NCBI RefSeq assembly: GCF_000737515.1
Contig: NZ_CP006587.1
Span: 3,653,001-3,717,000 of the forward strand
Origin: Hymenobacter sp. APR13
GTDB lineage: Bacteria > Bacteroidota > Bacteroidia > Cytophagales > Hymenobacteraceae
Direction of reading: 5' to 3'
Length of the DNA: 64,000 nt
Below the pieces are notes generated by a model, which did no database searches, had not been told where the DNA came from, and saw only the letters and a program-made list of their open reading frames with translations. Positions 7,445 to 35,687 of the stretch are shown piece by piece (the first letter of the stretch is position 1; each line of letters begins with the position of its first letter). A program made the position numbers and the translations under genes.

Positions 7445-7546
7445 GTAGAGACGCGACACTTCGCGTCTTGTCGTTGAGCGACTGAGGCCGAATGAGGGGG
7501 CAAAACAACGTCAGCAACGACGAGACGCAAAATATTGCGTCTCTAC
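7445..7546. repeat. GTAGAGACGCG-type inverted repeat pair
   Basis: Left arm from 7445 (GTAGAGACGCGACACTTCGC...) and right arm 7515-7546 (...ATTGCGTCTCTAC) are imperfect inverted copies of one roughly 32-bp element. The same family appears as a perfect pair at 20781-20886 and a degenerate pair at 30964-31071. Confidence 0.8.
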
Positions 7547-7552
7547 GGGAGC

Positions 7553-8044
7553 TTAGTTCGCTACAGAAACAGGAACGGGCTGGGGCTGGGGCGGCGTGGG
7601 GGCGTGGTGCCAGACGTGCTGGAGCTGGGGCAGGGCGGAGGCGCGGGCTTCGCCGAGCGACCAGTCGAGGGCGCTTTCGATGTTGGCGAAGAACTGGATG
7701 TCGTAGTGGATGAAGTGGCGGCTGACGCGGATGAGGCTTTCCACGACCATCTGGTTGTACATGTTGCTGGTGGGCAGCACGAGGGCAATCTGCTGGATGG
7801 CGGGCACGGACACGCGCGGCAGCCAGGTAGTAGTGAGCCAGAACTGTTCTTCCAGGCCGAGGTTGGGGAGCTGGTGCAGGTCGAGGATGGCGCTGTGGAC
7901 GGTACCCTGCTCTACGAGCTGGGCTACTTGGTTCATGCTGGCCCGGAAGTGGCGGAGGCCGGGTTGCGTGGGGTGCCACTGGAAGCGGAGCAGGTGGAGG
8001 TCGGGCTCATACTGGGCCCGGATATCGTGTAAGCGTAGAATCAT
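7553..8044 (-). CDS. hypothetical protein (163 aa), STAS/SpoIIAA-like fold possible
   Basis: Unrecognised soluble protein starting MILRLHDIRAQYEPDLHLLRFQWH. The alternating strand/helix pattern, with an early beta-rich part, a helix spanning SMNQVAQLVEQG, a strand SAILDLHQLPN and a later IALVLPTSNMYN, resembles small proteins of the STAS/SpoIIAA-like type found in Hymenobacter genomes, but no diagnostic motif is present. It ends in a proline-rich tail. The gene stops 6 bp before the GTAGAGACGCG repeat. Function unknown. Confidence 0.55.
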   Translation of the reverse strand: MILRLHDIRAQYEPDLHLLRFQWHPTQPGLRHFRASMNQVAQLVEQGTVHSAILDLHQLPNLGLEEQFWLTTTWLPRVSVPAIQQIALVLPTSNMYNQMVVESLIRVSRHFIHYDIQFFANIESALDWSLGEARASALPQLQHVWHHAPTPPQPQPVPVSVAN

Positions 8045-8171
8045 AGAGCACCAAAATGTGGCGTTGCGGGGTGTTGGCAGAGAAAGGGGCTACAAGGTAC
8101 GGGGGCGGCGGTGGTAGTGGATTCGGGGGCGGCCTGGTTTCCTGTGTTGCGGCCTGTGCTTATCGGTAGGT

Positions 8172-8402
8172 GCTATCTGGCAGGCAGTGGATGATAACTG
8201 GCAAGCAGTGGATACTAGCTGGCAAGTGGTAGATGGTATCTGTCAGGCAGTAGATGCTATCTGGCAAGTGGTGGATGACGTCTGGCAGGCAGTAGATGAC
8301 GTCTGGCAAGTGGTAGATGCTATCTGGCAAGCGGTGGATGACGTCTGGCAAGCAGAAGATGACGTCTGGCAGGCGGTGGATGCTATCTGGTAAGTGGCAG
8401 AT
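8172..8402. repeat. 21-bp minisatellite, 11 units
   Basis: Eleven consecutive 21-bp units of the form GAYRTCTGGCARGYRGTRGAT, with a partial twelfth after 8402. No unit contains an indel, so reading frames stay open on both strands: the plus strand would encode a VDDVWQA heptad. No start context or upstream gene supports translation. It fills most of the 500-bp gap between the genes at 8044 and 8552; the rest of that gap shows nothing. Confidence 0.9.
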
Positions 8403-8551
8403 GCCAAGTGGCAGCTGGGGGAAGCGGGGATATGGTAAGATAAGAGGGTGGCTAATGTAGTATAGATGTTTTGTTATATAAAAAAATGGTAGATTTTGCC
8501 GCTGGCTCTGACCGGCCGGAAATCCTTCATTTACCCCCTTTACGCTTATTT

Positions 8552-9493
8552 ATGACTACCAAACAACAAAACCAGGTGACGATGTATGCGGCGGTGCTGC
8601 GCTTCTTTGCGGAAGCAGGCGTGCCGCTGGTGGGAGTTAAGAAAATTGCACAGGGCCGTGATGCGCTGGCGGCGCTGGTGGCCCGCATTGAGGCAGTGGC
8701 CGCGGCGCAGGACCACTCCACGACGGGCGTGACGCGGGACCGGAAGGTGGTGAAGACGGAGGCGGCGCAAAAAGCCGAGATTCTGCGGCTGCTGGTGGTG
8801 GCCCTGACGACGGACGCGGCGCTGCGCGGGGAGTTGAAAACGCCGCTCAGCAAGCTGGTGACCGGCAAGGAGGCGGAGCTGCTGCGCTACCTGCAGAAGG
8901 TGGATGCGGCAGTGGGCACCATTGACGAGACGGAGCTGGCCGATGCGGGCTACGACCCGCAGGTGCGCCAGACGCTGCAAACCGATCTGGCGGAGCTACT
9001 GGCCACGCAGGGCGAGGCGCGGCAGATTGAGACGGGCACCAAGGCGGCCACCGAGACGCTGCCGGAGCTGGTGCTGGCGGCCTCGGAGCTGCTGGAAACC
9101 CAGCTGGACCCGTTTGTGAAGGCCCAGCAACTGGCCCAGCCGGAGCTGGTGCTGCAATACGAGGCGGTGCGGCGCATTGTACGGACGGCGGCGCGGCGGG
9201 CGCCGGAGTACCGGGGCGCGACGCTGCCGGGCAAGCCGGCGCTGGTGTACGACCGGCGCGAGGCGGGCGTGGTGGCGCCCATGCTGGGCAACCGTAGCGG
9301 CCGGGGCCTGACGCTGCGCTACTACACGGCGGCCACCCCGGCGGCGCTGCCGGAAGCGGGGCAGGGGCTGGCGGTGAAGAACAAGGCGGAGGTGCATCTG
9401 CCGGATTACAGCAAGCTGGGGCCGGCCGATGCGCCCTACCTGCTGGTAGTGCAGGAACAGCTGGATGGGGAAGGGCGCTGGGTGGTGCGGTAG
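8552..9493 (+). CDS. hypothetical protein (313 aa), helical
   Basis: Unrecognised. The frame opens at 8471, but the ATG at 8552 (MTTKQQNQVTMYAAVLRFF) fits better. Residues 1-190 are strongly helical and Lys/Glu/Ala-rich with a TTGVTRDRKVVKTEAAQKAEIL segment, suggesting a helical bundle. The last 110 residues look beta-rich and end with DAPYLLVVQEQLDGEGRWVVR. No signal peptide or membrane helix. Codon use is that of the host. It stands alone, followed by a repeat copy and a terminator. Confidence 0.6.
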   Translation: MTTKQQNQVTMYAAVLRFFAEAGVPLVGVKKIAQGRDALAALVARIEAVAAAQDHSTTGVTRDRKVVKTEAAQKAEILRLLVVALTTDAALRGELKTPLSKLVTGKEAELLRYLQKVDAAVGTIDETELADAGYDPQVRQTLQTDLAELLATQGEARQIETGTKAATETLPELVLAASELLETQLDPFVKAQQLAQPELVLQYEAVRRIVRTAARRAPEYRGATLPGKPALVYDRREAGVVAPMLGNRSGRGLTLRYYTAATPAALPEAGQGLAVKNKAEVHLPDYSKLGPADAPYLLVVQEQLDGEGRWVVR

Positions 9494-31692: not shown

Positions 31693-33219
31693 ATGCGTTT
31701 TAATTTACCCTTCCGCAAAGCCCGGCCCGATACCGTAAACCACGCCGGGGCCGCCGCTTTCACTTTGTCGCCTGCGCTGGAGCTGTACGCCGCCGTGGCC
31801 ACCACGGCCCTCACCGACCAGTTCTACGAAACAGCCGATACGCGGCTGACGCGGCTCCGGGAGCTGGTGGCGCGGTGCGAGCCCCGCTTTGTGGCCCAGC
31901 TGGCGGTGTATGCCCGGGAGCGGATGCACCTGCGCTCCGTGCCGTTGGTGCTGGCCGTGGAGCTGGCCCGCCGCCACCGCGGCGACAGCCTCGTGAGCTG
32001 CCTGGTGGCCCGCATCGTGCAGCGCCCCGACGAAATCACGGAGCTGCTGGCCTTCTATACGCAGGCCAACCAGCGCACCGGCCGCAAAACCCTCAACCGC
32101 CTCTCCAAGCAGGTGCAGAAAGGCCTGGCCCAGAGCTTCAACCGCTTCGACGGCTACCAGCTGGCCAAGTACGACCGGGCCGGCGCCGTCCGCCTCCGTG
32201 ACGCGCTGTTTCTGGTGCACCCTGCCGCCAAAAACGCCGAGCAGCAAGCCCTGTTCAACCAGTTGGTGGCGGGTACGCTGCCCACGCCCTACACCTGGGA
32301 AACCGAGCTGTCGGCGCTGGGGCAGGTGGCCTACGCCACGCCGGCGGAGCGCACGGTGGCCTTCCGCCAGAAATGGACCGAGCTGATTGGCAGCGGCAAG
32401 CTGGGCTACATGGCCCTGCTGCGCAACCTGCGCAACATCCTCGAAGCCGACGTGTCGGCCGAAACGATGGTGGAGGTGTGCGCCACCCTGGCCGACCGGT
32501 TTGCGGTGGCGCGCAGCAAGCAGCTGCCCTTCCGGTTTCTGGCGGCCTACCGCGAGGTGAAAGCCCTGCACGGCGGCCACGTGTCGGCGGTGCTGGCGGC
32601 GTTGGAAGACGCCATCAGCCACAGCGCCGCCAACCTGCGCGGCTTCGGCCCCGACACCCGCGTGGTAATTGCCTGCGACGTGTCGGGCTCGATGCAGCAG
32701 CCGGTGTCGCCGCGCAGCAAAGTGCTGCTCTACGACGTAGGTTTGGTGCTGGGTATGCTGCTGCAGAGCCGCTGCCAGCACGTGGTGGCCGGCATGTTCG
32801 GCAACACCTGGAAGCAACTCAGCTTGCCCCGCGGCCCGGTTTTGCGCAACGTCGACGAGTTCTACCGGCGCGAAGGCGAGGTCGGCTACAGCACCAACGG
32901 CTACCTCGTTATCGAGGACCTCAAGCGCCGCCGCGAGGTGGTAGACAAGGTGCTGGTGTTCACCGACTGCCAGCTCTGGAACACGCACTTCAATGGCACC
33001 ACCATCGCCAAAGAGTGGGCTGAATACCGCCGCACGGTGGCACCCCAGGCGCGGCTGTACCTCTTCGACCTGGCCGGCCACGGCACCGCCCCCCTCGACG
33101 TGCGCGCCGAGGACGGAGTGGCCCTGATTGCCGGCTGGTCCGACAAGGTGTTCGACGTGCTGGCGGCGCTGGAAAACGGTGGCTCCGCCCTCACCGAAAT
33201 CGAATCGATTGACTTCTAA
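31693..33219 (+). CDS. rsr: Ro60-type TROVE domain / vWFA protein (508 aa)
   Basis: Bacterial Ro60 homologue. Residues 20-310 form the helical-repeat TROVE domain (LELYAAVATTALTDQFYETADTRL, ARERMHLRSVPLVLAVELARR, LRNLRNILEADVS), a ring that binds misfolded RNA ends in its hole and Y RNA on its outer surface. Residues 318-500 are a von Willebrand A domain with an intact MIDAS motif DVSGSM near residue 327. Length matches the family (about 530). Bacterial Ro proteins work with Y RNAs and exonucleases in RNA turnover, and are often next to rtcB, as here at 34287. The intergenic DNA that follows folds into five Y-RNA-like units. ATG at 31693 is the only plausible start. Confidence 0.93.
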   Translation: MRFNLPFRKARPDTVNHAGAAAFTLSPALELYAAVATTALTDQFYETADTRLTRLRELVARCEPRFVAQLAVYARERMHLRSVPLVLAVELARRHRGDSLVSCLVARIVQRPDEITELLAFYTQANQRTGRKTLNRLSKQVQKGLAQSFNRFDGYQLAKYDRAGAVRLRDALFLVHPAAKNAEQQALFNQLVAGTLPTPYTWETELSALGQVAYATPAERTVAFRQKWTELIGSGKLGYMALLRNLRNILEADVSAETMVEVCATLADRFAVARSKQLPFRFLAAYREVKALHGGHVSAVLAALEDAISHSAANLRGFGPDTRVVIACDVSGSMQQPVSPRSKVLLYDVGLVLGMLLQSRCQHVVAGMFGNTWKQLSLPRGPVLRNVDEFYRREGEVGYSTNGYLVIEDLKRRREVVDKVLVFTDCQLWNTHFNGTTIAKEWAEYRRTVAPQARLYLFDLAGHGTAPLDVRAEDGVALIAGWSDKVFDVLAALENGGSALTEIESIDF

Positions 33220-33228
33220 TACCCGCAA

Positions 33229-33275
33229 CCCCGGGAGTGGCATTCCGCCAAGAAAAGCTGCCGCTGCTCCCGGGC
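33229..33275 (+). other. hairpin directly after the Ro60 gene
   Basis: CCCGGGAG and CTCCCGGG pair across about 30 bases with an inner GGCA/TGCC helix. No T-run. It may protect the mRNA 3' end or be a processing point upstream of the Y-RNA-like array. Confidence 0.4.
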
Positions 33276-33342
33276 CCCTGCCCGATTTTCTACAAGCCCC
33301 ACGCAATAATCATGTCCAGTACATCGTAAACTCTTTGGGAAG

Positions 33343-33419
33343 GCGGCTGACCACTATTCGGCAGCCGTCGGCCGGAACGGCGCGGCGCCGGGGCAATTCG
33401 GCCTCGGCCCCCCGTTCCA
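33343..33419 (+). other. two strong hairpins leading into the Y RNA array
   Basis: CGGCTG / CAGCCG (33346-33368 region) and a longer stem GGAACGG...CCGTTCC enclosing GCCGGGGC-AATTCG-GCCTCGGC. These do not carry the GGTGCC / GTTGCC marks of the Y units, so they are a leader structure, or a diverged unit. Confidence 0.4.
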
Positions 33420-33435
33420 ACCCCTGAACTGCGGC

Positions 33436-33563
33436 CGTTGGGTGCCGTAAGCGGGCGGTACTTCGCTGGTTGAAGCAGGCTTCTTCGGAAGTGCTGCCGG
33501 GTTCGAGTCCCACGCCGCGGCTACTGCCGGGGTACAATCCGCCGGCTGACCGTTGCCCCAGCG
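33436..33563 (+). ncRNA. Y-RNA-like unit A (T-arm only)
   Basis: Terminal stem CGTTGGG / CCCAGCG (7 bp, one G-U) frames the unit. It has the shared 5' mark GGTGCCGTA (33441), TACTTCG (33459) and the 3' mark GTTGCC (33552). A T-arm with the standard TTCGAGT loop (33502-33508) is present with a 3-bp stem, but no D-arm can be found, so this is a divergent or partly degraded tRNA mimic. First of five tandem units between Ro60 and rtcB. Confidence 0.6.
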
Positions 33564-33584
33564 CCGTGGTTTCAGGACGTTATG

Positions 33585-33727
33585 ATAAGTCGGGTGCCGT
33601 GGAGAAGCGTTTCTTCGGGTCGCACGTTCGAGTCGTGTCTGCCGGCCGCATCAGGGCAGGCAGTAGCTCAGCTGGTAGAGCAGAGGTGGCATCAGCCACT
33701 GTTTCTCACCTGTTGCCCCGGGCTTAT
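33585..33727 (+). ncRNA. Y-RNA-like unit B with permuted tRNA mimic
   Basis: Terminal stem ATAAGTC / GGCTTAT plus GGG/CCC. Order inside: GGTGCCGT; linking helix GAGAAGC/GTTTCTC (33602-33608 with 33701-33707); T-arm CACG-TTCGAGT-CGTG (33623-33637); acceptor-like helix CTGCC/GGCAG (33639-33643 with 33659-33663) closed by a 15-base loop; TA; D-arm GCTC-AGCTGGTA-GAGC (33666-33681); extra hairpin GTGGC-ATCA-GCCAC; GTTGCC. The T-acceptor-D order is the reverse of a tRNA's and matches the tRNA-like domain of bacterial Y RNAs (YrlA). The TACTTCG hairpin of the other units is altered here (TTTCTTCG). Confidence 0.75.
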
Positions 33728-33762
33728 TCTATTTCTATTGCCTATTTACTTCAGCGTAACGC

Positions 33763-33907
33763 TGTACGGGTGCCGTAGCCGGGCCATACTTCGCGCTCTT
33801 AACGCCCAGGTCGCGGGTTCGAGTCCCGCTGGCTGCTGCTTCGGTGGCAGCTGTAGCTCAGTTGGTAGAGCAGGTTTTTGGAGGCCGGGCGCTTGTTGCC
33901 TCGTACA
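33763..33907 (+). ncRNA. Y-RNA-like unit C with permuted tRNA mimic, UUCG cap
   Basis: Terminal stem TGTACGGG / CTCGTACA-type (8 bp, one G-U). GGTGCCGTA at 33769, CATACTTCG at 33785, linking helix CGCCC/GGGCG, T-arm GCGGG-TTCGAGT-CCCGC (33813-33829), acceptor helix CTGCTGC-TTCG-GTGGCAG (33833-33850) extendable to 10 bp and capped by a UUCG tetraloop, TA, D-arm GCTC-AGTTGGTA-GAGC (33856-33871), GTTGCC at 33895. The T and D loops keep the bases that dock on each other in tRNA (TTC in one, GG in the other). Confidence 0.8.
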
Positions 33908-33915
33908 AATTGCCG

Positions 33916-34050
33916 GCTGATCGGTGCCGTAGCAGGGCCTTACTTCGATGGGGTCGGTGGGGTCGTGGGTTCGAGTCCCACCTGCCGCAAGGCAGTAGCT
34001 CAGTTGGTTAGAGCACGCATGTGGGCCCTGCACCCTGTTGCCCGATTAGC
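33916..34050 (+). ncRNA. Y-RNA-like unit D with permuted tRNA mimic, GCAA cap
   Basis: Terminal stem GCTGATCGG / CCGATTAGC (9 bp, one G-U). GGTGCCGTA at 33923, TTACTTCG at 33940, linking helix GGTGGGG with CCC..CACC, T-arm GTGGG-TTCGAGT-CCCAC (33965-33981), acceptor helix CTGCC-GCAA-GGCAG (33982-33995) with a GNRA tetraloop, TA, D-arm GCTC-AGTTGGTTA-GAGC (33998-34014), GTTGCC at 34037. The cleanest of the five: every tRNA-like helix has full pairing. Confidence 0.85.
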
Positions 34051-34052
34051 GG

Positions 34053-34132
34053 AAAAAAGCTGGTGCCGTAGGGCCGCCATACTTCGTCCTGTCACTACCA
34101 AGCGGCGGTTCGGCTTGTTGCCCAGCTTTTTT
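34053..34132 (+). ncRNA. Y-RNA-like unit E, minimal, with T-run
   Basis: Terminal stem AAAAAAGCTGG / CCAGCTTTTTT, 11 perfect pairs, with GGTGCCGTA at 34062, CATACTTCG at 34078 and GTTGCC at 34117. There is no T-arm or D-arm, only a short inner helix (GCCGCC with GGCGG). Ends in T6, so it can also terminate transcription of the whole array. Begins two bases after unit D. Confidence 0.7.
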
Positions 34133-34286
34133 CATCCGGCAAATTCAATACGAAATTCTACTCAGTTATCCGCATTACCCATTATTTACAGCTCATAGTT
34201 AATTACTTGATAAGCAACGATTAGTATTTAATACTCAATACCAGCTAATCCATACTAACTACTTTCCACTCACGAATTCCTCCATC

Positions 34287-35687
34287 ATGGCCTCACAATT
34301 ACGTGGCAACGACTTGCGCCAGCTCGGGTTTCCCGAAGGCCGGGCTATTGGCCTGGCGCTGGCCCAGCTGCAGCGCAAGCACCTCAAAAAACTCTCTCAA
34401 ACCGACCAGTTGGCTCTGCTCACGGCGCTGCTGGCAAACCCCACTGACTTTCTTACCGACCTCGACTGGAGCCATACGGCCGCCGCGCTGCTGCCAGCGC
34501 CCAGCCGCCATATTGCCCTCGCCGAGCGGAAAAGCTACGCCGTCTTCGGGGCCGAGCACATCGAGCAGGGTGCCATCCACCAGATGGAAACGGCCATGAA
34601 GCTGCCCGTAACCATGGCCGGCGCCCTCATGCCCGATGCCCACCACGGCTACGGCCTGCCCATCGGCGGGGTGCTGGCCACCGACAACGCCGTGATTCCC
34701 TACGCCGTGGGCGTGGACATTGGGTGCCGGATGGCGCTGTCGGTGTTTGCGCTGCCGCCCAAGTTCCTGGAGCAACGGGTGCAGGAGCTGCGCAAGCTGC
34801 TGCTGGAGCACACGCGGTTCGGCAACAAGCAGGGCTTCGTGCGCGGCCAGAAGCTCGACCACGCCGTGCTGGAGCGCCCCGAGTTCCGCGACATTAACTT
34901 CCTGCGCAACAAGCAGGGCACGGCCGCCGAGCAGATTGGCACGTCCGGCGGCGGCAACCACTTCGTGGAATGGGGGGTGGTCGATATCCTCGACCCCACC
35001 AACGAGCTGGGCGTGCCGGTGGGCCAGTACCTAGGGCTGCTCTCGCACAGCGGCTCGCGGGGCTTGGGCGCCAGCGTGGCCAACCACTACACCAAGCTGG
35101 CCAAAGACGTCTGCCAGCTGCCCGCCGAAGCCCAGCACTTAGCTTGGCTTTCCCTGGACAGCGAGGCCGGCCAGGAATACTGGGCGGCCATGAATCTGGC
35201 CGGTGACTACGCTTCGGCCTGCCACCACCAGATTCATCAGCGGCTGGCCAAGGCCTTGGGCGAGCGGCCCCTGGCGAAAGTGGAAAACCACCACAACTTC
35301 GCCTGGAAAGAGCGGCTGGCTGATGGCCGTGAAGCCATTGTGCACCGCAAGGGCGCTACGCCGGCCGGGGCCGGCGTGCTTGGCATTATTCCCGGCTCCA
35401 TGACGGCTCCCGGCTTCATTGTGCGGGGGCGGGGCGAGGCAGCCTCGCTGTCGTCGGCGTCGCACGGGGCGGGGCGGGCCATGTCCCGGACCCGGGCCAA
35501 GCAGGAGCTGGGCGAAGCGGAAGTGCGGCGCTACCTGCAGCAGCACGGTATCGAGCTGATCGGCGGCGGCCTCGACGAAGCTCCGCAGGCCTACAAAGAC
35601 ATCCGGGCCGTGATGCAGAGCCAGACCGAGCTGGTGGATGTGCTGGGCTCATTCACGCCGCGTATCGTGCGGATGGAAGGCGGCTGA
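34287..35687 (+). CDS. rtcB: RtcB-family RNA ligase (466 aa)
   Basis: RtcB joins RNA 2',3'-cyclic phosphate or 3'-phosphate ends to 5'-OH ends using GTP and manganese. Motifs: MPDAHHGYGLPIGGVLAT, metal cysteine in GVDIGCRM near residue 147, GTSGGGNHF, HSGSRG, NHHNFAWKE, HRKGATPA, IIPGSM and the guanylylated histidine in SASHGAGRAMSR near residue 394. Length matches the shorter bacterial RtcB group. Located downstream of Ro60 and the Y-RNA-like array on the same strand; neither rtcA nor the regulator rtcR is in the window. Two strong hairpins follow the stop. The 34133-34286 gap is AT-rich and may hold the rtcB promoter; no clear box is seen. Confidence 0.95.
   Translation: MASQLRGNDLRQLGFPEGRAIGLALAQLQRKHLKKLSQTDQLALLTALLANPTDFLTDLDWSHTAAALLPAPSRHIALAERKSYAVFGAEHIEQGAIHQMETAMKLPVTMAGALMPDAHHGYGLPIGGVLATDNAVIPYAVGVDIGCRMALSVFALPPKFLEQRVQELRKLLLEHTRFGNKQGFVRGQKLDHAVLERPEFRDINFLRNKQGTAAEQIGTSGGGNHFVEWGVVDILDPTNELGVPVGQYLGLLSHSGSRGLGASVANHYTKLAKDVCQLPAEAQHLAWLSLDSEAGQEYWAAMNLAGDYASACHHQIHQRLAKALGERPLAKVENHHNFAWKERLADGREAIVHRKGATPAGAGVLGIIPGSMTAPGFIVRGRGEAASLSSASHGAGRAMSRTRAKQELGEAEVRRYLQQHGIELIGGGLDEAPQAYKDIRAVMQSQTELVDVLGSFTPRIVRMEGG

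Follow-up and report, generated by a model that had tools for sequence, protein, structure and literature searches.

Circularly permuted tRNA architecture in a putative Y RNA array between the Ro60 and rtcB genes of Hymenobacter

The stretch of 64,000 nucleotides from Hymenobacter sp. APR13 analysed here (the window, whose numbering is used throughout, all features lying on the plus strand) carries a Ro60 gene and, on the same strand, the RNA ligase gene rtcB, and the gap between them is occupied by five tandem units, A to E, whose sequences support their identification as Y RNAs. One of these, unit C, is by its sequence a circularly permuted tRNA with all arms, including an anticodon arm with a Lys(CUU)-like loop, and unit D, with a Pro(GGG)-type loop, is predicted to be nearly so; this anatomy, taken by itself and without the decoy function considered below, is put forward with high confidence. 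The rarer feature of the array is not the number of its units but their content, that is, permuted tRNA bodies of which some bear a tRNA-like anticodon loop, which a preliminary description of the same DNA had missed. The anticodon-bearing permuted tRNA may provisionally be considered the new element; the titles, abstract openings and passages searched contain nothing on long Y RNA arrays or on anticodon loops in Y RNAs, key Y RNA papers lying outside this coverage, and novelty is claimed on those terms.

Permuted tRNA anatomy of units C and D

Read from its 5' end, unit C (33757-33912) begins with the 5' strand of a Ro60-type stem and continues with GCG, the loop CTCTTAA, CGC, CC, AGGTC, a T-arm and the 3' strand of an acceptor stem; a short loop then leads into the 5' strand of the acceptor stem, TA, a D-arm, A, GG and finally the 3' strand of the Ro60 stem. 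In tRNA numbering, this order corresponds to nucleotides 29-31, 32-38, 39-41, 42-43, 44-48, 49-65 and 66-72, followed by the loop and then by 1-7, 8-9, 10-25, 26 and 27-28. The anticodon arm (33793-33807), which was read from the sequence and evaluated by pair counts and shuffle statistics, comprises GCG (nucleotides 29-31), the loop at 33796-33802 (CUCUUAA as RNA, with the anticodon CTT at 33798-33800), CGC (39-41) and CC (42-43), the last of which pairs with GG (27-28) at 33873-33874. The remaining arms (33813-33871), identified by alignment and covariation, are a T-arm at 33813-33829, an acceptor stem of 7 base pairs (bp) formed by 33830-33836 with 33847-33853, and a D-arm at 33856-33871. 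When un-permuted, unit C corresponds to a 72-nucleotide tRNA with acceptor, D, anticodon and T stems of 7, 4, 5 and 5 bp.

Unit D (33911-34054) displays a similar layout with nearly all arms; its limits come from a whole-genome search, the unit not being listed in the search of the window, and they overlap those of C and E by a few bases. Its anticodon arm (33946-33959), defined by the loop-match and pairing tests described below, consists of CG, the loop ATGGGGT at 33948-33954 (anticodon GGG at 33950-33952), CG and GTG, of which the last pairs with CGC at 34016-34018, one of the pairs being G-U. The loop, AUGGGGU as RNA, is exactly that of the genome's own tRNA-Pro(GGG). The rest of the body (33965-34014) is made up of a T-arm at 33965-33981, an acceptor-like hairpin of only 5 bp with a GCAA loop, and a D-arm at 33998-34014. 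In both units the Ro60 stem interrupts the anticodon stem on its 5' side, after nucleotide 28 in C and after nucleotide 29 in D.

This arrangement carries a warning for annotation. ARAGORN labels unit C as tRNA-Lys(CTT) at 33768-33839, a call with the same anticodon as that of C that starts in the Y stem and borrows bases of that stem for its acceptor, and the Rfam tRNA model places a match at 33847-33989 that merges the D-arm of C with the T-arm of D; both would be wrong annotations. Among 177 excised unit cores, ARAGORN found no tRNA in native order. Its use on re-ordered units as a proof of the anticodon arm was rejected, as 36.6 of 55 such units on average were still called after the anticodon region had been shuffled (50 of 55 unshuffled).

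Conservation of the anticodon arm

Comparisons within the genus drew on 69 related Ro60-rtcB gaps, from which duplicates, nine gaps from outside Hymenobacter and loci whose fetched stretch did not reach rtcB had been removed, and on the 448 units delimited in them. Before the analysis of tRNA classes, 172 of the 448 were set aside, having no parsed T-arm or measuring less than 90 nucleotides. Units resembling C (19 or 20 nucleotides from the TTC motif to the T-arm) numbered 90, of which 22 were dropped on the geometry of the acceptor or D-arm, leaving 68. Pairs 29-31/39-41 are formed in 56 of these (mean of 4.1 and maximum of 10 in 500 shuffles), all 5 bp in 51 (shuffles 1.3, maximum 8), and the three pairs together with U33 and A37 in 47 (shuffles 0.2, maximum 2). 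When the geometry filter was omitted, at a spacing of 20, the three pairs were present in 55 of 70 units, 52 of which also displayed U33 and 50 of which displayed A37. The loops occur in 22 distinct versions, with entropy lowest at positions 33, 37 and 38 and highest at 34-36, and five of the 22 are identical to tRNA loops of the genome (Lys UUU, Asn GUU, Gln UUG, Glu UUC and His GUG).

The 40 units resembling D (spacing 17 or 18) form the two inner pairs in 27 cases (shuffles 8.3, maximum 17) and all 5 bp in 21 (shuffles 0.7, maximum 5); in 19 the loop follows the pattern U33-NGG-G37 of Pro tRNAs (shuffles 0.9, maximum 5), and each of the four bases occurs at the first anticodon position, as in the four Pro anticodons. 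In a comparison with a relative of 99% Ro60 identity (G002), the loops differ from those of the window only at nucleotide 34 (UUU for CUU in C, UGG for GGG in D), so that the amino-acid box is kept, although this is a single anecdote.

A further test asked nothing of the unit types: the exact 7-nucleotide anticodon loops of the genome's 38 distinct tRNAs were found, at most 28 nucleotides after TTC, in 145 of the 448 units, against a shuffle total of about 13.6. The same count made with other segments of the tRNAs fell from 145 at nucleotides 32-38 to 80 at an offset of one in either direction, to 49 and 48 at two and to 25 and 27 at three; of all offsets tried, only +12, where the segment covers the variable loop and T-arm, gave a second rise (95). 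At least one unit with an exact loop is present in 61 of the 69 loci, and two or more kinds in 44. Short units carry such loops too: the tRNA-Asp loop CTGTCAC, closed by 4-6 bp, is present in 15 of 104, and the tRNA-Phe loop CTGAAAA, whose stem is mostly weak, in 26; unit E of the window belongs to this group.

Other tRNA classes are represented as well. Units with a Leu- or Ser-type D-arm have a hairpin resembling a variable arm before the T-arm in 34 of 44 cases, versus 44 of 152 units of class I (Fisher p 1.5e-8, uncorrected for descent). Of 68 loci, 25 contain Leu-type and 18 contain Ser-type units; the window contains neither. D-type units showed no coherence between D-arm and anticodon, their D-arm being generic, and the 12 units with Trp-type loops had no Trp-type D-arm.

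Identity of the units as Y RNAs

The five tandem units and their shared markers, as first described, are borne out. A repeat search recovered five copies of a 25-nucleotide core, GGTGCCGTA-N9-TACTTCG, at 33441, 33593, 33769, 33923 and 34062, that of unit B being divergent (GGTGCCGTG ... TTCTTCG), and the motif GTTGCC, read from the sequence, is exact in all five. A core finder returned 5 cores in the window gap, none on the reverse strand and a mean of 0.08 in 200 dinucleotide shuffles; in the 69 related gaps it returned 450, whereas the reverse strand gave 6 and five shuffles gave between 3 and 13.

The preliminary description had further claimed that each unit is framed by a private terminal stem, differing in sequence between units and yet staying paired. 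Across the genus, a unit's own 3' arm is its best partner in 180 of the 226 units (of 448) that are testable when the 3' end is picked by motif alone, with a mean energy of -9.8 kcal/mol versus -3.5 for other arms of the same array. Within the window this part of the claim stands for four units of five, the 5' arm of unit C pairing slightly better with the 3' arm of A (-8.0) than with its own (-6.7). Folding energy alone was rejected as a test of the units, being uninformative for A (z -0.84) and C (z +0.27), which fold no better than shuffles; B, D and E are moderately better (z -2.0 to -2.7).

Evidence from relatives was gathered with R1, a covariance model built from unit C and 48 relatives (alignment A1, 49 C-type units of the genus). 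These were 49 of 56 C-type units, seven being omitted by eye as other types, and as the 56 had been chosen partly by the 3-bp anticodon pairing, counts for that helix are biased upward. Unguided, RNAalifold predicted from A1 the Ro60 stem, the upper stem, the T-arm, the acceptor stem and the D-arm, with double-sided changes in 22 of 37 pairs. Cells at the 42 named pairs are paired in 95.8% of cases, versus 36-46% when the pairing is slid, and the covariation score is 0.443 versus 0.168 +/- 0.008 in shuffles; the stems thus covary across relatives as had been proposed, and they are retained in related genomes, with no loss seen. An unpaired U is invariant at column 15, and the end stem includes the interrupted part of Ro60 type that is expected of a Y RNA. 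R1 recovered A, B and E in the search of the window and D in that of the whole genome, at 36.9-102.4 bits and with E-values far from chance.

Searches with Rfam gave a divided answer. The best-scoring family for units B, C and D is YrlA (RF02553; 30.6-42.5 bits, E 1.8e-7 to 5e-4; in the whole-genome search 8e-8 to 9e-8 for C and D and 2.4e-4 for B), but no match anywhere in the genome reaches its gathering score of 69 bits, and the same model at E of 10 or better also matches 13 of 14 control genomes, never above the cut-off. A tRNA-like effector domain with T-arm, acceptor-like stem and D-arm is found in B, C and D, partly in A and not in E. From sequence, then, B, C and D appear to be Y RNAs of YrlA architecture that lie outside RF02553 by its own threshold. 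Identification of all five units as Y RNAs next to Ro60 is supported, in the computational tests run here, by their adjacency to Ro60, the two-sided stem of Ro60 type, the sub-threshold best match of B, C and D to YrlA, covariation, and co-occurrence with Ro60 across genomes. A search for transfer-messenger RNA (tmRNA) gave no match in 32500-35000 up to an E of 10.

Units A, B and E, and individual scores

Unit A (33429-33569; R1 36.9 bits, E 3.9e-8) has a Ro60-type private stem of -11.9 kcal/mol and a T-arm-like hairpin at 33499-33511 with no clear D-arm, and a UUCG-closed hairpin, beginning at 33475, lies where some relatives place an anticodon-type loop. Unit B (33581-33730; R1 66.1 bits, E 8.5e-16; YrlA 30.6 bits) has a T-arm at 33622-33638, an acceptor-like hairpin and a D-arm at 33666-33681, with no anticodon loop preceding the T-arm; units of its type carry instead a short-loop hairpin after the D-arm, closed by ATCA in the window and by UUCG in several relatives. 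Unit C scores 155.5 bits with R1, of which it is one of the 49 training sequences, and 42.5 bits with YrlA; unit D scores 102.4 bits (E 1.9e-23, whole genome) and 42.4 bits.

Unit E (34050-34134; R1 45.2 bits, E 2.7e-10) is short and has neither T- nor D-arm; it contains CTGTCAC, the loop of tRNA-Asp(GUC), at 34089-34095, on a stem of only 2 bp. The array ends, as had been noted, in a T run (34127-34132), which among the window units follows E only, and across the genus 37 of 69 last units are followed by at least five T, versus 75 of 379 other units. Two of the region's three terminator-like sites lie in the region of unit E (shuffles 1.2 on average), and the stem of E, running into the T run, probably doubles as a terminator.

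Distribution within and beyond the genus

Among the best 80 of 168 Ro60 relatives, all 48 loci named as Hymenobacter or Solirubrum have rtcB on the same strand, 0.8-3.9 kb downstream, and 9 of the 32 others also have it downstream on that strand. Arrays of three to nine cores are the rule in the 69 gaps (eight cores in 17 gaps, seven in 14, six in 13, five in 11, nine in 6, four in 5 and three in 3), and arrays also occur beyond the genus; five units in a row, which the preliminary description had proposed as a cassette of a new kind, are not peculiar to this genome. In 61 congeneric genomes, the R1 match goes together with Ro60: each of the 43 genomes with a Ro60 match has one at E 1e-10 or better, and the other 18 have none. 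The array is an accessory element, characteristic of those members of the genus that bear Ro60. The 43 include genomes in which Ro60 is fragmentary (G040) or has internal stops or a frame break (G003, G012, G022). At the locus with Ro60 in fragments (L082, in G040), one R1 match passes the same threshold (5.8e-11) and three cores remain, a reduced array that suggests decay upon loss of Ro60.

Individual gaps vary in other respects. Plus-strand frames of at least 200 amino acids occur in 32 of the 69; the only one identified lies at 7546-8559 of the Hymenobacter telluris locus (L091), with Ro60 on one side and the array on the other, and encodes an ADP-ribose glycohydrolase of microbial PARG type (PF10021, E 3.3e-47). 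A second rtcB paralogue of 55-68% identity follows the first in several relatives (for example L090, L094 and L102).

Outside the genus, full-length R1 matches of 64-120 bits, most of them adjoining Ro60, are present in several other Bacteroidota, with loops that include CTTTTAA, CTCATAA (Met/Ile CAU) and CTGTTAA. Across the phylum R1 has matches in at least 257 of 296 genomes, many of those listed being partial (model positions 32-126 or 37-119, about 34-43 bits); this tally was rejected as a count of Y RNAs, since by their match range the partial matches look like tandem tRNA genes. Of 19 stretches taken further, mostly with full-length matches, 17 contain Ro60 by tblastn (all but L225 and L229). 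Arm-like hairpins are found in 18 of 68 distinct full-length matches (shuffles 6.8, maximum 15).

Ro60 genes are also found in 95 phage and 81 plasmid records. Of ten phage, viral or plasmid stretches searched with R1, five exceed 60 bits (L230, L233, L234, L236 and L237), L238 matches weakly (at most 22 bits), L239 has one match at E 0.92, and L231, L232 and L235 have none. By eye, one of three units in Xanthomonas phage Olaya (L234) carries the Asn loop CTGTTAA and another a CUC (Glu) loop with a Glu-type D-arm, and a unit in Brevundimonas phage Bambus (L233) carries a Leu-type variable arm and D-arm; a unit on a Deinococcus plasmid (L236) has a UCGG-closed hairpin in place of the anticodon-type loop. 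On the plasmid of Rhizobium sp. BT04 (L237), rtcR, Ro60, Y RNAs and RtcB stand in a row, with three YrlA-like matches between Ro60 and RtcB, all under the Rfam cut-off.

Genes and elements flanking the array

The Ro60/TROVE gene (31693-33219) encodes 508 amino acids and matches Pfam TROVE (PF05731) at E 1.4e-28; its product scores 27.5 bits for vWA_Ro60, marginally below the family cut-off of 27.7, and matches the solved TROVE proteins 9l5y and 9kop at E 9.5e-27. Its nearest named relative among the matches listed, from which the window genome itself is possibly absent, is that of Hymenobacter sp. BT190 (96% identity). The rtcB gene (34287-35687) encodes 466 amino acids and matches Pfam RtcB (PF01139) at E 2.6e-83, and the gap between the two genes contains no ATG-started frame of at least 200 amino acids.

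Directly 3' of the Ro60 stop codon, at 33228-33276, lies a GC-rich hairpin (CCCGGGAGTGGC ... GCTCCCGGG), possibly a terminator or stabiliser; by eye, several relatives have a comparable hairpin of different sequence after the stop. The terminator scan of the region placed a terminator-like site at 33271-33284. Upstream of unit A, at 33340-33425, is an element of two hairpins (GGCGGCTGACC..GGCAGCCGTC; GGCCGGAACGG..CCGTTCCAACC), to which several relatives with an A-type unit have, by eye, similar sequence, and which raises the question of whether it may be the leader or promoter region of the array.

Possible function and alternative explanations

The arrangement may be read, tentatively and at somewhat less than even weight, as an array of Ro60-held permuted-tRNA Y RNAs serving as tRNA decoys or baits beside an RtcB repair activity. 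Its supported parts are those that can be read from sequence, namely the existence of the units and of their stems, the permuted order of the tRNA parts, the anticodon arms of C and D, and the tie to the presence of Ro60. One transcript, probably ending at E, would be cut into units, which fits the position of E, the sole window unit with a T run, at the close of the array, and the T runs that follow the last unit elsewhere in the genus. Each unit joins a Ro60-type stem to an effector domain, which in B, C and D is a circularly permuted tRNA whose T-arm is followed by an acceptor-like stem with a short loop and then by a D-arm; the anticodon loops of C (Lys CUU) and D (Pro GGG) would be displayed outward. 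Ro60 would bind the stems, by analogy with accounts of YrlA and Rsr in the available text of PMC7790460 and PMC8394870. The displayed loops may attract enzymes of the anticodon loop, above all tRNA-cleaving toxins and phage-defence nucleases; the decoys would spare real tRNAs or report on them, and the neighbouring RtcB would reseal those that had been cut. In favour of this reading are the adjacency of rtcB, the phage-borne Ro60 loci with such units and the accessory nature of the array, and the available text of PMC7790460 suggests competitive inhibition of a nuclease as a role of the tRNA-like domain of Salmonella YrlA.

A wider proposal, possible but on balance doubtful, is that the Ro60 loci of Bacteroidota and of some phages are libraries of permuted tRNA mimics and form a tRNA-decoy and repair system unrecognised before. 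Their Y RNAs would show the arm or body of Lys, Pro, Asp, Asn, Phe, Trp, Glu, Gln, His, Leu and Ser tRNAs, and the anticodon would change fast within a conserved arm frame through contest with tRNA-cleaving toxins and phage-defence nucleases.

Several observations weigh against a decoy function, the case for which is inferred from resemblance and neighbourhood. Units A and B have no anticodon loop and that of E sits on a weak stem; 17 of the 22 C-type loops, including CTCTTAA of unit C itself, match no tRNA loop of the genome; and unguided RNAalifold on A1 does not predict the anticodon hairpin. The D-arm of unit D (TAGCTCAG...) differs from that of the genome's real Pro tRNAs (TAGCGTAG...), so that mimicry of a particular tRNA is partial. 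The relatives are not independent, and as shuffles ignore common descent, the significance of the pairing and loop counts is overstated. Beyond the genus enrichment is weaker, exact loops being found in 11 of the 68 distinct full-length matches (shuffles 3.3, maximum 10), and two of the 11 (in L229 and L152) resemble real tRNA sequence by eye. An rtcB of at least 79% identity is also present in 4 of the 18 congeners without Ro60, and the nuclease studied in PMC7790460 is reported, in its available text, not to accept Salmonella YrlA as a substrate.

The first alternative, which we consider unlikely but worth serious attention, is that the units, as in Deinococcus, tether PNPase to Ro60, the tRNA-like body binding the former and the stem the latter, the copies providing no more than dosage or adaptation to substrates and the anticodon arms being structural leftovers of an ancestral tRNA. 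Work on D. radiodurans describes such a tether, which is also summarised for YrlA (PMC8394870 and PMC7790460, as far as their available text goes), and the lack or weakness of an anticodon loop in A, B and E, with the UUCG closure of A and the short-loop hairpin of B-type units in its stead, is in keeping with it. Leftovers should decay, yet U33 and A37 stay while 34-36 vary and the flanking pairs are kept, 19 D-type units of the 40 preserve NGG with G37, and an Asp or Phe loop persists in many short units devoid of T- and D-arm.

Less probable still is that the loops are substrates of tRNA-modifying enzymes (acting, for example, at nucleotides 34 and 37) that are recruited to Ro60 or titrated by it. 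Recurring loops (U33-G34-U35, A36-A37-A38 and U36-A37) are of kinds that modifying enzymes would be expected to accept, and the D- and T-loops of YrlA are described, in the available text of PMC8394870, as being acted on by DusA and TruB. The many loop classes of one genus (Lys, Pro, Asp, Phe, Asn and Trp), however, have no obvious modification in common, and such a scaffold would leave the adjacent rtcB unexplained.

It is very improbable that the units are permuted tRNA genes from which the Ro60 stem is excised, RtcB joining nucleotide 28 to 29 and the acceptor loop being opened to yield a working tRNA. The ligase does adjoin, un-permuted C has the arms of a complete tRNA, the genome's 38 distinct tRNAs include no other Lys(CUU), and the order of the unit is that of permuted tRNA genes; but A, B and E yield no complete tRNA, D has 5 acceptor pairs, several loops fit no usual tRNA, and ARAGORN calls carry little weight. 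The commonest C-type loop in relatives, moreover, is UUU (17 of 56, versus 9 with CUU), for which the genome has a normal gene.

A chance origin, in which decayed tandem tRNA pseudogenes are mistaken for Y RNAs, may be dismissed as having next to no probability: real tandem tRNA genes at 4618217-4618414 of the window genome do give a spurious YrlA match of 25.1 bits, because the T-arm of one neighbour followed by the D-arm of the next mimics the permuted order, and tandem tRNA genes in general probably account for many partial R1 matches of 35-42 bits, with which the YrlA matches in control genomes and the bridging of C and D by the Rfam tRNA model would agree, but private stems and Ro60-type motifs occur in every unit, covary across species and are found only with Ro60, and this covariation and co-occurrence weigh strongly against such a reading.

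Relation to known systems and significance

Parts of this anatomy have precedents. Algae and archaea have permuted tRNA genes that begin with the 3' half and end with the 5' half, a stem bringing the ends together; here, in contrast, a stem of Ro60 type lies inside the anticodon arm and is kept beside Ro60, and several units are not convertible into tRNAs. Mimicry of part of a tRNA by another RNA is known from tmRNA and permuted tmRNA. The units share with YrlA (RF02553) the position beside Ro60, the end-to-end stem, and the T-arm, acceptor-like hairpin and D-arm in permuted order; they differ in that the Rfam consensus runs from the upper stem to the T-arm without a hairpin, at a place where C and D have a 7-nucleotide loop of anticodon type, and in that the genus also has units with class II variable arms and Leu- or Ser-type D-arms and short units with no tRNA body.

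At the level of the locus, the rsr-yrlBA-rtcBA RNA repair operon of Salmonella likewise brings Ro60, Y RNAs and rtcB together, with yrlB and yrlA where the window has five units and the genus three to nine per locus (available text of PMC7790460). The Rsr-Y RNA-PNPase complex of Deinococcus radiodurans (RYPER) resembles the present system in having a Y RNA carried by Ro60 as a candidate tether (PMC7790460, PMC8394870 and PMC8058203, in their available text), and differs from it in that Hymenobacter has several units with different effector domains. According to the available text of PMC7790460, the functions of bacterial Ro60 and Y RNAs had been studied only in D. radiodurans, and possibilities are listed.

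If the decoy interpretation is true, arrays that show different anticodons would make the role of Y RNAs beside rtcB directly testable. It would also link Ro60, RtcB and conflict targeted at tRNA, and could explain why phages carry Ro60.

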